Origin: Gemmatimonadota bacterium
GTDB lineage: Bacteria; Gemmatimonadota; Gemmatimonadetes; Gemmatimonadales; GWC2-71-9
Reading direction: 5' to 3'
DNA: 64,000 nt
Assembly (NCBI GenBank): GCA_040388535.1
Contig: JAZKBR010000002.1
Location: forward strand, 582,485-646,484
Positions 38,941 to 43,884 of this stretch are shown here, piece after piece (position 1 is the first letter of the stretch; each line of letters opens with the position of its first letter). The notes under the pieces are model-generated. The model made no database searches and had not been told where the DNA came from. It saw nothing but the letters and a program-made list of their open reading frames with translations. The translations under genes and the position numbers were made by a program.

Positions 38941-39013
38941 GGCCAGGTAGCTCAGTTGGTAGAGCACGTGACTGAAAATCACGGTGTCGGGGGTTCAATT
39001 CCCTCTCTGGCCA
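38941..39013 (+). tRNA. tRNA-Phe(GAA)
   Basis: A 73-nt cloverleaf: acceptor arm GGCCAGG/TCTGGCC (G7-T66 wobble), D arm GCTC...GAGC, anticodon stem CGTGA/TCACG with loop CTGAAAA (anticodon GAA), T arm GGGGG-TTCAATT-CCCTC, discriminator A. CCA is not encoded. A strong terminator follows at 39016. This is the likely integration target of the adjacent island. Confidence 0.96.
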
Positions 39014-39015
39014 CT

Positions 39016-39041
39016 GGGGCCTCCCAACGTTGGGAGGCCCC
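39016..39041 (+). terminator. Terminator after tRNA-Phe
   Basis: Perfect palindrome GGGGCCTCCCAA/TTGGGAGGCCCC (12-bp stem, CG loop), then GCTCGTTTCC. Confidence 0.75.
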
Positions 39042-39059
39042 GCTCGTTTCCGGTAACGT

Positions 39060-39146
39060 GTGACTGAAAATCAACGGTGACGGGGGTGGAGCTGCGGCGA
39101 CTGCGTCGCCTCGCTCGCCTTCGGCTCAATTCCCTCTCTGGCCACT
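39060..39146 (+). pseudogene. Duplicated 3' half of tRNA-Phe, interrupted
   Basis: GTGACTGAAAATCA (39060-39073) repeats the anticodon arm and TCAATTCCCTCTCTGGCCACT (39126-39146) repeats, base for base, the T-arm/acceptor end and 2 bp downstream of the tRNA gene at 38995-39015. Between the two parts is a 40-bp insert (GGTGGAGCTGCGGCGACTGC...). The pattern is what integration at a tRNA 3' end leaves behind. Confidence 0.8.
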
Positions 39147-39157
39147 ACGAAACAGTG

Positions 39158-39188
39158 AAGGGGTCCTCGAATGAGGACCCCTTCTTTT
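39158..39188 (+). terminator. Terminator after the tRNA-Phe remnant
   Basis: AAGGGGTCCTC-GAAT-GAGGACCCCTT followed by CTTTTC: an 11-bp stem and a T-rich tail. Confidence 0.75.
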
Positions 39189-39478
39189 CATGCGGGTCGG
39201 GGGTGGAGCCGCGGGGACTGCGCTCCACGGTTTGATGTGGAGTTTACCCAATTCGCGGCCCCCCACTTCAAGCACCAACTTCCCGTTCGCGACCCAAAAA
39301 AGTCAGGGTTTTCCCTGACTTTTCTGCGTTTTCCTTGACAGGCGACGGGGGCTGCCAGCTCCTTTTTCGCGCCACACGCACCGATTCCTCAAAATCATTT
39401 GAGCCTTGGTTGATCCCCGATTGTTAGCTCGGGGCTCCGCGTGTGAGCAACCTCCACTTCTTCGTCTGAGGATTACCG
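39189..39478. other. Island left border spacer
   Basis: 290-bp stretch with no coding sequence that I can support. 39197-39225 repeats CGGGGGTGGAGCCGCGGGGACTGCG seen inside the tRNA remnant (39079-39105). A bidirectional hairpin terminator lies at 39298-39323. Lower G+C toward 39400. Confidence 0.5.
39298..39323. terminator. Bidirectional terminator
   Basis: AAAAGTCAGGG-TTTT-CCCTGACTTTT, an 11-bp stem flanked by A and T runs that suits both strands. Confidence 0.75.
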
Positions 39479-40939
39479 ATGCGAATGCGCAGTATCGGAA
39501 GGAAACTGGTGACATGGCTGGCACCGGGCGCACTAGTCGCTATTCTGGCGGCTTGCGGAGCAGATATGCCGAGTATCCCTGAGGCGGGAGGATGGGAGCT
39601 GGTCCCCCAACTCCCCGTGGCTGTGGTTGATGCCCACGGCTATTTCGCATCGATCGGGTGCAAGCCTGTTCAGGGAAAGGGTTTCAAGGGAGTTATTGCC
39701 GTAACAAGGCAAAATGGAAAAATGGCAGCTTTCGACTGCTCCTCCGCGAATCGCGATTCGGTTTCGGCTGCCGAGGAGCGATATGCAGCGGCATTACAGG
39801 CCGCCCAGCATGGCCCGAACGCCCTAATGGGCTATTACTCGTGGGTGTGGCTTTCCTACCAAGAGTGCACCACCCAAACGACACCCGCCGTTAATACGAA
39901 TAACCCATACGCTGGATACGTCCGGGTGATCTATGACGGTGTGGACTACGGCGATTATTGGGTTCCAGCCGGACCGGCTTCGACCTCTGCGGATGTCCGT
40001 GTTTGTGAGTTTGTCGACGTCTATCTAGGGACCTGGCACCCTGGCACTACCAACCCGAACGAAGAGCCCCCCCCGCCATCGGGCTCTGGCGGGACCCCCG
40101 CGGATCCGAACAATCCGAGTGGTAGGTACGTCACTGAAATTCAGGTCTCCCCTACAGGGGAGAACTACCAACTTGGAAGTGCAGCTTGGTTCACGGCGAC
40201 GCTGAAATTCAATGATGGATCTACCGAGTCCCGGAACGCGGCGGACTTCATTTGGATGAGCTTCAATACCTCCATCGCCCACACAGGAGACAAGGGCGAA
40301 TTCGTCTTCTCCGGTCAAGGAACCACGACAATCCAAGCGGCGCTCGTCGGTGGCAACGGGGTTGTTGGGACTGCGACTGTTACGGTCACCCTGGCCCCGA
40401 CAGATACGCTTTGCAAGGGCTGGTCAGCAGATCGCAGGATTACAACCTCGGCCGGGAAGGTTGATGGAATCCTAGGCAGCCAAATGATCCAAGACTCAAT
40501 GCGGGCTATGTTTACGGATTCGTATGGACCACTCAACAGCCCCAAGCCGCAGACGAGCAGGGTTGAAATCGGCGCAGTTGTATACCGCGAGACTGCCGGT
40601 GGACCCCTCAAGTTCGCCCGTCTTCCCAGCGGGCCCCTGACCGACAATTGCGGTTGGGATTTTCCAGGCATCGGATATCCGGGAGTCGTGGCGATTATTC
40701 ACACCCACCCAAACCTTGATGGTCAGCAGGTGACCTGCAATCGAACAGCGAGGGTCGATACCGCCGCAGCACTGTTGAACGGCGGTGGTTCGAGCAATGA
40801 CTGGCAGGCACAGGCGGGCTCGACTTTTCCGTGGTATACGATGGACCCGGAACATGTATTCCGGCTCGACTCCTCCAGTTCGCCGACGGCGCCAGATTAC
40901 TGGAATGTTGGTACTCTGACCTGCTTCAGCCGTCCATGA
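39479..40939 (+). CDS. Lipoprotein with Ig-like domain and C-terminal JAMM-like motif
   Basis: 486-residue exported lipoprotein: LVAILAACGAD lipobox with Cys26. The first 190 residues are unrecognised. A Pro/Gly-rich linker (about 196-213) leads to an Ig-like (Big-type) domain (about 218-305, YVTEIQVSPTGENYQLG, ending TATVTVTLAP). The last 150 residues carry HTHP at 408-411 and S-x-x-D at 438-441 (SSND), with a candidate Glu363 in RVEIGAVVYRE. This reproduces the JAMM metal pattern E-HxHP-SxxD, close to DUF4329-type domains. A metal-dependent peptidase or amidase role is inferred. The stop overlaps an ATG in the next gene's frame. G+C is visibly lower than in core genes. Confidence 0.8.
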   Translation: MRMRSIGRKLVTWLAPGALVAILAACGADMPSIPEAGGWELVPQLPVAVVDAHGYFASIGCKPVQGKGFKGVIAVTRQNGKMAAFDCSSANRDSVSAAEERYAAALQAAQHGPNALMGYYSWVWLSYQECTTQTTPAVNTNNPYAGYVRVIYDGVDYGDYWVPAGPASTSADVRVCEFVDVYLGTWHPGTTNPNEEPPPPSGSGGTPADPNNPSGRYVTEIQVSPTGENYQLGSAAWFTATLKFNDGSTESRNAADFIWMSFNTSIAHTGDKGEFVFSGQGTTTIQAALVGGNGVVGTATVTVTLAPTDTLCKGWSADRRITTSAGKVDGILGSQMIQDSMRAMFTDSYGPLNSPKPQTSRVEIGAVVYRETAGGPLKFARLPSGPLTDNCGWDFPGIGYPGVVAIIHTHPNLDGQQVTCNRTARVDTAAALLNGGGSSNDWQAQAGSTFPWYTMDPEHVFRLDSSSSPTAPDYWNVGTLTCFSRP

Positions 40940-40959
40940 CATTTTTTTCGAGGATCTCA

Positions 40960-41397
40960 ATGCAAGACACGGTGACAACACTTCGGCGTGGCCTGGTTTT
41001 CGGCGCGATCGTACTGACGATTGCCGTCGCACGAGCGACTTCCCAGAGCGGTGGCGCTTGTGGTGAAGCGACGCATCCCAAGTCGGCCGCCCTTGCCGCT
41101 TATGCCAAGCGTTTCGTTTCCCTGCCCGCATTTCAGCGGTTCCGGGATCAGTTTCATGTGCCGACTGCAGATTCGTCCTCAGTGCGGATTGAAGCAGTGG
41201 ATTCGCTATGTGTTCGGGCCAGCGCTCTAATCAGCCAGGTGCTGAACGAACCAGAATCCACGGCTCGACGGATATACCTCGTCAAGGCGGGTGAGGTCTT
41301 CTTCGCGGAGGATCCCAAAGTGAAATCCGGTGAATGGACGAAGACATACGTCATTGACTCCTCAATGACTCGGATCTTGTCGAGCGTTGGGAGGTAG
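40960..41397 (+). CDS. Small secreted protein, island paralogue 1
   Basis: 145 residues from ATG 40960, chosen for GAGG at 40950-40953; ATG 40936 overlaps the lipoprotein stop as an alternative and would couple translation. A hydrophobic signal segment (LVFGAIVLTIAVARA) is followed by a domain with VDSLCVRASALI, RRIYLVKAGEVFFAEDP and a C-terminal IDSSMTRIL. These positions correspond to shared positions in the proteins at 42813 and 43318. I do not recognise the family; the genes seem to form a local set with the JAMM-like lipoprotein. Confidence 0.75.
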   Translation: MQDTVTTLRRGLVFGAIVLTIAVARATSQSGGACGEATHPKSAALAAYAKRFVSLPAFQRFRDQFHVPTADSSSVRIEAVDSLCVRASALISQVLNEPESTARRIYLVKAGEVFFAEDPKVKSGEWTKTYVIDSSMTRILSSVGR

Positions 41398-41722
41398 GAC
41401 GAGCCAGCCGGTCCCCTCCTGCTTTTCGGCGGGGGGGGCACGGCAGGCTCCGAAGCATACTTCATCGACTTCGCGCTCGATGATCTCCTGCCCATGGCGC
41501 TACAATGGCGGCATTTTTCGGTCAAGCCTGAGAAACTATCGTATAGCTGCGAGTGAGTTGGAAAGAATTTCGATTCCGTGATTTCTCAGGTCCATCCGAG
41601 AAGGGTTTCAGGAGTCGGGGGGCGGGCGTGCCGGGGTCATCTGGTCTGCCTGCCCCCATGCACGCAGCGAGAGCTCGCGGAAAAGGAGGATGACCTCTGG
41701 TCCAGCGCGGCGCTGCCGTTCC
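41398..41722. other. Low-information gap inside the island
   Basis: About 325 bp without a supportable gene. Short open stretches exist in several frames, but none matches a family I recognise. It ends at the integrase remnant. Confidence 0.4.
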
Positions 41723-41923
41723 CTAGCTTGCTCGTGGCCTTCGGAGCGGGGTGACCGGCGTCTCACCACTTCCAAGTGCTGCTGCCATATCGGCCCCAGC
41801 TCGTTCCGAAGCGAAGGAGAGCGGGTCGTTGGCAAGGTGGGCGTAGCGCTGGGTTGTGCTCGCTTGAGTGTGTCCCAGCAGGCCTCCAATCAACACCAAG
41901 GACGAACCGCCACCCACGGCAAC
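41723..41923 (-). pseudogene. Tyrosine recombinase (integrase) C-terminal remnant
   Basis: About 67 codons matching the end of a phage-type tyrosine integrase: VAVGGGSSLVLIGGLLGHTQ, then ASTTQRYAHLANDPLSFASER. The GLLGHTQ His and the catalytic Tyr in QRYAHL are retained. The upstream HxxR region and everything N-terminal are absent; the sequence switches at about 41923 to a peptidase fragment on the other strand. Typical of a decayed mobile element. Confidence 0.8.
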
Positions 41924-41927
41924 CGTA

Positions 41928-42155
41928 GCGTATGACCCGCTTTTCCTCGCAATAAACAACACACCATCGGACGGGCATCTGTGGGAGATTCTACAGACAG
42001 GTATGCATGAAGCTGTTCACGCGCGAACGGGCATCGTCACCGACCACCACAGACTGCCTAACGGTGAAGATGACGCGGAGCACTACGAAAACCACGAGTA
42101 CTTCAAGTACATCGACGTAGCGGGGCCTAACTCATGTCTTATCCCCCATCCTTGA
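41928..42155 (+). pseudogene. Truncated HExxH metallopeptidase-like fragment
   Basis: About 75 codons, AYDPLFLAINNTPSDG followed by TGMHEAVHARTGIVTDHH, with a HEAVH zinc motif, then HYENHEYFKY and a stop. No start or N-terminal half is present, and the break is directly beside the integrase remnant. It overlaps the next gene's start by 22 bp. Confidence 0.6.
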
Positions 42156-42679
42156 ATCGCCTCCAACTGCTGGGGCTGTTTGTGGTACTCCTGGGACCGC
42201 TGTCGTGCATATCGGCTCAGCAAAGCGCTAGGGCACGGAGCGGGCTCAAAGACCCTAGCCCTTGGGAAGTGCTCAACGGCTACCTAAGTCATCGATTTGA
42301 CATCGTGGATACACCGACAGTTCTGGTCCTCTGCGGGATCTCACCTGCCGATGTCGCTCCAACGGATATCGTCAAGTCCCCGAGAATGTCGGGGCGGCCG
42401 CTCTTTCCACGGGCGTATGCCGACACGGTGCTTTTCGATTCACGCTGCGAAAAGGGCCAGCAGGATTATTCTGGCGGCGGGAAGAAGAATGTCCTCTGGA
42501 TTGATTCACTGAGGGTGACCGCGGACAGTGCATGGATTGTCGCGCGCGCCCAACCGGTCTCCAAGCCGGGACGTGAGGGGGGGCAGCTGAGAGAAAGGTT
42601 CCTCTGGGTGCTCGGTCAAGAGTATCCCGGAACGAAGTCGATCATCTTCTTCGCGCGGCCAGTCCGAGCCGTAAACTAG
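42134..42679 (+). CDS. Secreted protein of unknown function, island
   Basis: 181 residues from ATG 42134, with a signal peptide (LLGLFVVLLGPLSCISAQQ; Cys may be a lipobox). Mature part: VLCGISPADVAP, RCEKGQQDY and WVLGQEYPGT stretches; no domain recognised. Not obviously related to the three 145-residue island paralogues. Confidence 0.65.
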   Translation: MSYPPSLNRLQLLGLFVVLLGPLSCISAQQSARARSGLKDPSPWEVLNGYLSHRFDIVDTPTVLVLCGISPADVAPTDIVKSPRMSGRPLFPRAYADTVLFDSRCEKGQQDYSGGGKKNVLWIDSLRVTADSAWIVARAQPVSKPGREGGQLRERFLWVLGQEYPGTKSIIFFARPVRAVN

Positions 42680-42812
42680 AAGCCTTTGTCCCGTGGACCC
42701 CTGCCGACAATGGCAGGGGTCACGGGCCCTGGTTCTCGTTGAGGAGGTCTCAGAAAGGTGCACGCGAGACCGCCTGCGTCAGCAGGTTCGCGATAGGAGG
42801 ACCAACGCAACG

Positions 42813-43262
42813 ATGAAATTTTCTATTTCCCTTCCTATCTCCGTCGCCACATTACTAGTCGTGACGAGAGCCCCGGCGGTCCGGCAACCGCACCTGCGGG
42901 AGGCGTCCTTTTCCCAAGGGTGCATTACCGGTGCCGATGAAAGCGCGAACATGTTGGGTTTTTTCAGGGCGATTGCATCGTCGGATCTGGCCGAAAACGC
43001 GCACCAGCGGTTGATCTACAAAATCAGCAAGGTGGAACGCCGTCAGGTGAAATTGGTTGCGACGAACTCTGTCTGCGCGAAGGCAGCTGTCACGATCAAT
43101 CGGGACCGAGGCGTTCCTGACTCGACGTCTCGATCGGTGATTCTGATCAAGATCGACACGATCTACATCGCGAGTGACCCAGCGGAACGGGCAGGAGAGT
43201 ACGGCGTGAGCTACCGCATGAACTTCCGATGCGACTCGATCCTCGCGCGGTTCGTGGAGTGA
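42813..43262 (+). CDS. Small secreted protein, island paralogue 2
   Basis: 149 residues from ATG 42813 with AGGAGG upstream at 42795-42800. A signal segment (LPISVATLLVVTRAP) precedes a domain with TNSVCAKAAVTINR, PDSTSRSVILIKIDTIYIASDP and YGVSYRMNFRCDSIL. The match to paralogue 3 (VCAKAIVTINR, TTSRSIVLIKLDTAYVARDP, YRMNHALDSVL) is strong over the C-terminal half. Function unknown. Confidence 0.78.
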   Translation: MKFSISLPISVATLLVVTRAPAVRQPHLREASFSQGCITGADESANMLGFFRAIASSDLAENAHQRLIYKISKVERRQVKLVATNSVCAKAAVTINRDRGVPDSTSRSVILIKIDTIYIASDPAERAGEYGVSYRMNFRCDSILARFVE

Positions 43263-43317
43263 TTGGTTCGGGTTCTCCCCTCGATTTCGGGAGCCGCAGC
43301 GCACCTCGAGAATTCTG

Positions 43318-43755
43318 ATGAAACACCTGCTTGGATTCGGAGCAACCGTCCTCCTGTCGGCTGCTGCCGCAACACCTCACATTCCCGCGTATCCCGCAAT
43401 GGGTACGCAGCGCTGCGTCCGCGACAGCGCATTGCTGGCCGCGGAACTGTACCAGTTCCGGGAAATGGTGTCCGACACCGGCGAACTCGCGGTGCTGGGC
43501 CGCCAGGGGTACCAGTTGCCCGCAATGGATAGCACGAAGGTCACCGTGGTGACGCACGACGCGGTCTGTGCCAAAGCGATCGTAACGATCAACCGGTTCG
43601 GCGGGGCACCAGATACGACGTCGAGGAGCATTGTCCTGATCAAGCTCGACACCGCCTACGTCGCGCGTGACCCGAAGCAGTTCGCTGGCGAATTCGCCAT
43701 CCACTATCGAATGAATCACGCGCTCGATTCCGTACTGGTCACGCCGATCAACTGA
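43318..43755 (+). CDS. Small secreted protein, island paralogue 3
   Basis: 145 residues from ATG 43318, with a short hydrophobic signal (LLGFGATVLLSAAAATP). C-terminal half VCAKAIVTINR, TTSRSIVLIKLDTAYVARDP and YRMNHALDSVL closely matches paralogue 2 and more weakly paralogue 1. It is the last gene of the island before core-like sequence resumes. Function unknown. Confidence 0.78.
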   Translation: MKHLLGFGATVLLSAAAATPHIPAYPAMGTQRCVRDSALLAAELYQFREMVSDTGELAVLGRQGYQLPAMDSTKVTVVTHDAVCAKAIVTINRFGGAPDTTSRSIVLIKLDTAYVARDPKQFAGEFAIHYRMNHALDSVLVTPIN

Positions 43756-43884
43756 ACAACTACGACTGCCGGCCCCGGCTCTGCGCCGTTCAGGTCGGAA
43801 AACGCAAAGGGGCTCCCCACCGGAAAGCCCTTTCCGAACATCCATCGTTCATCGTCCCTCGCCCATGACCCATCACCCCCAAGT

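Follow-up and report, generated by a model that had tools for sequence, protein, structure and literature searches.

In polymorphic-toxin loci, the activity of the toxin resides in its C-terminal domain and the gene that follows encodes the antidote, an arrangement described both for polymorphic toxins in general (PMC3482391) and for SitA (PMC5562445). Domains of the JAB/JAMM type were predicted to occur in such toxins in 2012, and were suggested to be nucleases (PMC3482391). The literature that we found shows no target for a JAB/JAMM toxin. Likewise, we found no paper that treats polymorphic toxins in Gemmatimonadota by name, and searching for the older term "Gemmatimonadetes" led only to broad surveys.

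The DNA examined here (hereafter the window) is a stretch of 64,000 nt from a Gemmatimonadota genome of 3.7 Mb. It contains a gene for a predicted lipoprotein with a C-terminal JAMM domain (P0001) that is followed immediately by a gene for a small, putatively exported protein (P0002). To judge from its sequence, this pair, which recurs in other genomes of the phylum, has the look of a competition toxin and its antidote from a family not described before. The features of the locus are collected in Table 1.

Table 1. Features at and around the JAMM lipoprotein gene, in window coordinates
Feature	Position	Strand	Remarks
tRNA-Phe (GAA), neighbor of the island insertion	38941..39014	+	ARAGORN
Degenerate partial tRNA-Phe copy	39058..39146	+	direct repeats D3, D5
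Inserted island	39015..43880		~4.9 kb; right edge not sharp
P0001, lipoprotein with C-terminal JAMM domain, proposed effector	39479..40939	+	486 aa; frame ends exact
Cys26 codon, predicted lipid-attachment residue	39554..39556	+	LVAILAAC, lipobox-like, judged by eye
Ig-like region, residues ~203-312	40085..40414	+	weak LigA/Lig and BglH matches
JAMM metal/catalytic residues	40565..40801	+	Glu363 40565-40567, His408 40700-40702, His410 40706-40708, Ser438 40790-40792, Asp441 40799-40801
P0002, small exported protein 1, proposed cognate immunity/inhibitor protein	40936..41397	+	family A2; overlaps effector stop
Tyrosine integrase/recombinase, C-terminal fragment	41723..41890	-	right limit approximate
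HExxH (MHEAVH) open frame, surviving 3' part of what may be a second effector	41868..42155	+	true start lost at integrase junction ~41890
P0005, exported 181-aa protein, possible partner of the HExxH frame	42134..42679	+	overlaps HExxH frame by 22 nt
P0003, small exported protein 2, paralogue	42813..43262	+	43% identical to P0004, E 6e-24
P0004, small exported protein 3, paralogue	43318..43755	+	model pLDDT 80.7

The N-terminus of P0001 (MRMRSIGRKLVTWLAPGALVAILAACGAD) has the appearance of a lipoprotein-type signal, and a lipobox-like cysteine is also present in many relatives of the protein, again as judged by eye. These features suggest that P0001 is exported and lipid-anchored, in agreement with a first-pass annotation made from the letters alone. 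The same annotation had proposed an Ig-like domain, for which there is weak corroboration. The region matches LigA/Lig and BglH chains at E values of 0.003-0.006 (phmmer), and residues 200-310 also match Ig-like parts of other Gemmatimonadota proteins, while none of the Pfam Ig models matches P0001. Searches of the window proteins against Pfam and NCBIfam returned nothing credible. Upstream of the lipoprotein gene, past the tRNA-Phe remnant, are two strong hairpins (39157-39184 and 39298-39323), the first of which is followed by TTTT.

Toward its C-terminus, P0001 carries Glu363, HTHP at residues 408-411 and SSND at residues 438-441 (Ser438-x-x-Asp441), which had been recognized at first reading as a JAMM-type metal motif. 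In an alignment of 26 relatives, E363, H408, H410 and D441 are the sole invariant columns, and this pattern rules out an HxHP motif that arose by chance. Ser438 is usual rather than invariant, and the cysteine columns are nearly invariant across the 26 domains.

Structure prediction for this domain used three sequences as input (the models overall rest on 3 and 5 sequences) and gave a weak model, with a pLDDT of 57 and a pTM of 0.61. A Foldseek search with this model yielded no significant match; the best was RadC, at an E value of 0.07, and the first matches were cytidine deaminases, which have the same fold as JAMM proteins, interspersed with RadC, BubCD and AMSH-type JAMM proteins. Despite the weakness of the model, all 50 best entries after structural re-alignment belong to the JAMM/MPN family (Z 6.2-7.8), so structure prediction sides with the JAMM proposal. 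From the sequence motif and the model together, the C-terminus of P0001 is predicted to be a JAMM metal-enzyme domain with the deaminase-like JAMM/MPN fold.

A comparison with JAB proteases and with DUF4329 (PF14220) had also been offered, and only part of it stands. The likeness is there: four of the 26 members touch DUF4329 (best E 9.5e-5), the best value for any relative over all comparisons being E 8.8e-5, and an hhalign comparison with one Rhs-DUF4329 protein from a genome of the same order (G004) superposes the E, HTHP and SxxD elements, with an E value of 2e-4 and a probability of 47%. Membership is another matter, because PF14220 does not match the window protein at all and scores 16.3 bits (G251) and 14.5 bits (G143) in relatives, below its gathering cut-off of 28.6 bits. 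By Pfam's own cut-off, then, the window protein is not a member of DUF4329, and its classification as an ordinary member of that family was rejected.

When the whole of P0001 was searched against 298 Gemmatimonadota genomes, only three other JAMM-type matches were found besides Ig-like matches, and each of the three has a gene for a small exported protein of the P0002 family behind it. Searching from the small-protein side revealed further upstream JAMM genes that the P0001 search had missed. A profile built from six JAMM domains (A1) locates 30 loci with the domain, which are divergent from one another (mean JAMM identity ~24%) and come from 27 of the 395 genomes searched. At 26 of these 30 loci, a gene matching the profile of the small family (A2) lies downstream on the same strand at E <= 0.1 (and at 25 of them with E <= 0.01). 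Its start is usually -22 to +112 bp from the JAMM stop, and two genomes (G242 and G039) have two tandem partner copies each. The four loci that lack a partner are two contig ends (G260 and G054, the latter with a cut-off signal-peptide frame that begins downstream), an Rhs C-terminus (G118) and a doubtful match (G115). Among loci outside profile building, the partner is present in 18 of 23 at E <= 0.01. Profile A2 found no partner in the 50 control loci (0/50), the one control match being the window itself. An association between the two gene families in other genomes, on which the first-pass annotation had staked its proposal, is therefore evident.

Additional searches were less productive. 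Profile A1 is too poorly conserved for a contig scan. An A3 scan recovered two loci, each with a partner gene; these relatives, from public records, are both from Gemmatimonadaceae. A genome-contig scan with P0001 recovered no relatives, phage and plasmid collections held no match to P0001, PHROGs gave nothing consistent, and searches of the sequences of solved structures with A1 and A2 found nothing.

Over 22 clean pairs, the distances between JAMM domains correlate with those between their partners (Mantel r 0.36, p 2e-4). The partners that were examined have a hydrophobic leader, with export judged by eye, and behind it a mature part in which two cysteines are usual. Adjacency and co-divergence thus indicate, at the sequence level, that the JAMM gene and the small gene form a functional pair, although these two properties alone do not separate an inhibitor from a subunit or a substrate.

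Three paralogous small secreted proteins had been said to follow the lipoprotein. Their paralogy is borne out (P0002 and P0004 are 30% identical, E 5e-9), but their contiguity is not: the last two lie 1.4-1.9 kb further on, and a broken integrase end, the HExxH fragment and exported P0005 are situated between P0002 and P0003. The start of P0002 overlaps the stop codon of P0001 (ATGA); translation may instead begin at a later ATG, at 40960. The fold of the small protein is well predicted and has no clear structural match (best E 0.3). The best re-aligned match is a cystatin, at a Z score of 4.6 (VIA) that is below the meaningful level and makes the likeness a hint only, and a viral structure library gave nothing. 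The small family is present in 40 of the 298 genomes, where its genes stand singly or in tandem, and is commoner than the JAMM domain. On another contig of the window's own genome (G000:C7:280775-281677; L005), one long frame contains two tandem small-family domains with no JAMM gene upstream; these are possibly spare immunity genes, or they have another role. In three further genomes (L116 in G122, L122 in G080 and L120 in G070), the small domain sits behind what we read as carboxypeptidase-regulatory-like lipoprotein parts, with no JAMM gene nearby. Because the domain is fused to other exported lipoprotein parts in this manner, its family must be broader than immunity alone. Among the three options for the small proteins, immunity or inhibition fits best, and a substrate is also possible.

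The locus lies on what had been suspected to be a mobile island, and comparison with a relative substantiates this view. In a genome of the same genus (G012), the ~4.9-kb insertion beside tRNA-Phe is absent, and a decarboxylase gene is found about 105 bp after the tRNA. The degenerate tRNA-Phe copy consists of an anticodon-arm piece, GTGACTGAAAATCA, and a 24-nt 3' end at 39123-39146 that is identical at 23 of 24 positions, and it is a probable attachment-site remnant. The G+C content is 56-61% in the island versus ~60-67% in its flanks, and no attR or other right-hand attachment repeat of the island was found. The integrase fragment was recognized from a weak Phage_integrase match (E 0.02) and from the residues ...GGLLGHTQASTTQRYAHLAND... 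in its translation. The HExxH remnant resembles an HExxH piece in another genome (G078), with a score that 0.2% of shuffles reach. P0005 has no clear relatives in the 298 genomes, and none that are convincing were found for P0006. Taken together, 41868-42679 looks like the relic of a second pair of effector and partner that was cut by the integrase end.

Unlike front parts bear the JAMM domain in different genomes: that of the window, a DUF4114-like one (G251), those of G018 and G048, and that of the A8 group, a larger set with common Ig-like repeats. Searching for the A8 front part in 89 genomes of the order revealed alternative C-termini on this common front part at two loci, one intact and one broken, with the front part being that of a relative and not of the window protein. 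In G037, an intact A8 front part has a different C-terminus and is followed by a different exported gene, whereas in G078 it has a frameshifted HExxH end. At the G037 locus (L156, 1210-3653), the A8 carrier ends in an unassigned C-terminal domain, and the exported gene overlaps its end.

A domain related to JAMM also scores weakly on the Rhs C-terminus of G118 (E 0.009), and an Rhs-DUF4329 protein is present in the same order (G004). In the latter genome (L151, 1261-2793), two consecutive Rhs C-terminal cassettes agree exactly in their Rhs ends and differ in their tips, that of the first being DUF4329; this locus reads as a tandem array of orphan Rhs toxin tips in the phylum. Broken effectors stand beside intact partners in two genomes (G163 and G267). 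In G163, the JAMM frame is cut near what, by our reading, resembles the end of an IS3-type transposase.

We consider it probable, at roughly 0.6, that P0001 is a polymorphic-toxin-like lipoprotein effector and that P0002 is its exported cognate inhibitor, or immunity protein. A lineage-specific lipoprotein front part would present the C-terminal JAMM metal-enzyme domain, which in a recipient cell would cleave a protein outside the cytoplasm, in either the periplasm or the envelope. The product of the adjoining small gene would be exported to that compartment too and block the JAMM domain there, and kin would thereby be spared. The extra small paralogues may be spare immunity genes from past or neighboring effectors, and the HExxH fragment with P0005 may be what is left of another effector pair. 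Transfer of the lipoprotein to the recipient might proceed through membrane contact or in vesicles. The leader of the partner and the conserved cysteines in its mature part fit neutralization outside the cytoplasm. Moreover, because effector and partner both appear to be exported and are Cys-bearing, action and inhibition would most simply take place there, and this would make a peptidase more probable than the nuclease activity suggested for Tox-JAB domains.

The interbacterial role is suggested on architectural grounds. Several points speak against an effector and its immunity protein, namely that the small domain is fused elsewhere, that no secretion or transfer system is tied to the pair and that exchanged C-termini are known from one intact (G037) and one broken (G078) locus. 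A broader proposal is possible but distinctly tentative: that Gemmatimonadota phylum-wide have outer-membrane lipoprotein toxins with interchangeable metallopeptidase tips (JAMM and HExxH) that act outside the cytoplasm, each with its own exported inhibitor.

The same lipoprotein, with its Ig-like front part, exported partner and tight operon, would also suit a surface peptidase that serves its own cell and has an inhibitor or chaperone dedicated to it. Such an enzyme would process proteins of its own envelope or of the environment, with the small protein holding it inactive during export and no competition involved, and all of the pairs could be a patchy, non-toxic protease-inhibitor set. Fusion of the small domain to other lipoproteins agrees with this arrangement. 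We nevertheless regard it as unlikely, given the patchy distribution and tRNA-island setting, the decayed effectors beside intact partners, the other C-termini on a common front part and the weak match on an Rhs C-terminus.

Rather more improbable is a polymorphic effector whose JAMM domain is a nuclease in the target cytoplasm, with the exported partner intercepting it during its passage through the periplasm. Nuclease activity has been proposed for Tox-JAB toxins (Zhang et al. 2012; PMC3482391), to which the domain bears a likeness through Tox-JAB-2/DUF4329; RadC is its top Foldseek match (E 0.07), and every SitA C-terminal domain tested to date works in the cytoplasm (PMC5562445). However, the partners are exported, and the conserved cysteines in both proteins suit an oxidizing compartment. 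Finally, a small protein that serves as JAMM substrate or second subunit, being cleaved or carrying activity rather than neutralizing, would equally be expected to show strict adjacency and co-divergence, but it is highly improbable because the small family outnumbers JAMM and survives as single copies, as tandem copies and next to broken JAMM genes, and because its alignment shows no conserved tail at the C-terminus of the kind that marks cleaved tags.

If P0001 and P0002 are indeed effector and inhibitor, the exported, Cys-bearing partner of a JAMM effector points to action outside the cytoplasm, and the pair points to a competition system in Gemmatimonadota. It also offers a two-gene system for testing both target and inhibitor. 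To our knowledge, no JAMM toxin has previously been shown to attack the cell envelope, and members of this family would be the first if the envelope-acting reading is true.

Among described systems, Tox-JAB-2/DUF4329 (PF14220) of Rhs and other polymorphic toxins (PMC3482391) shares with the window protein the JAB/JAMM fold, the E/HxH/S/D motif, a C-terminal position and a downstream partner. It differs in that the window protein and nearly all of its relatives miss PF14220 or fall below its cut-off, in that the window carrier is a predicted lipoprotein rather than an Rhs protein, with an HTHP-SxxD gap of about 25-30 residues, and in that its listed partner is Imm-NTF2-2, whereas the partner here is exported and has conserved cysteines. 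Tox-JAB-1/Imm65 of Bacteroidetes (PMC3482391) likewise combines a JAB toxin domain with an exported (lipoprotein) immunity protein, but its carriers are Rhs proteins from Bacteroidetes only; Imm65 was compared here by its description. The SitA/SitI system of myxobacteria (PMC5562445), which we compared by description, was considered as an orthologue and rejected. SitA has been reported from Myxococcales only, carries nuclease tips that act in the cytoplasm and uses TraA/B outer-membrane exchange, features not seen for the window pair. What SitA and, by prediction, P0001 have in common is a lipoprotein effector with a variable C-terminal domain, an immunity gene (here proposed) directly downstream and a setting among mobile elements.
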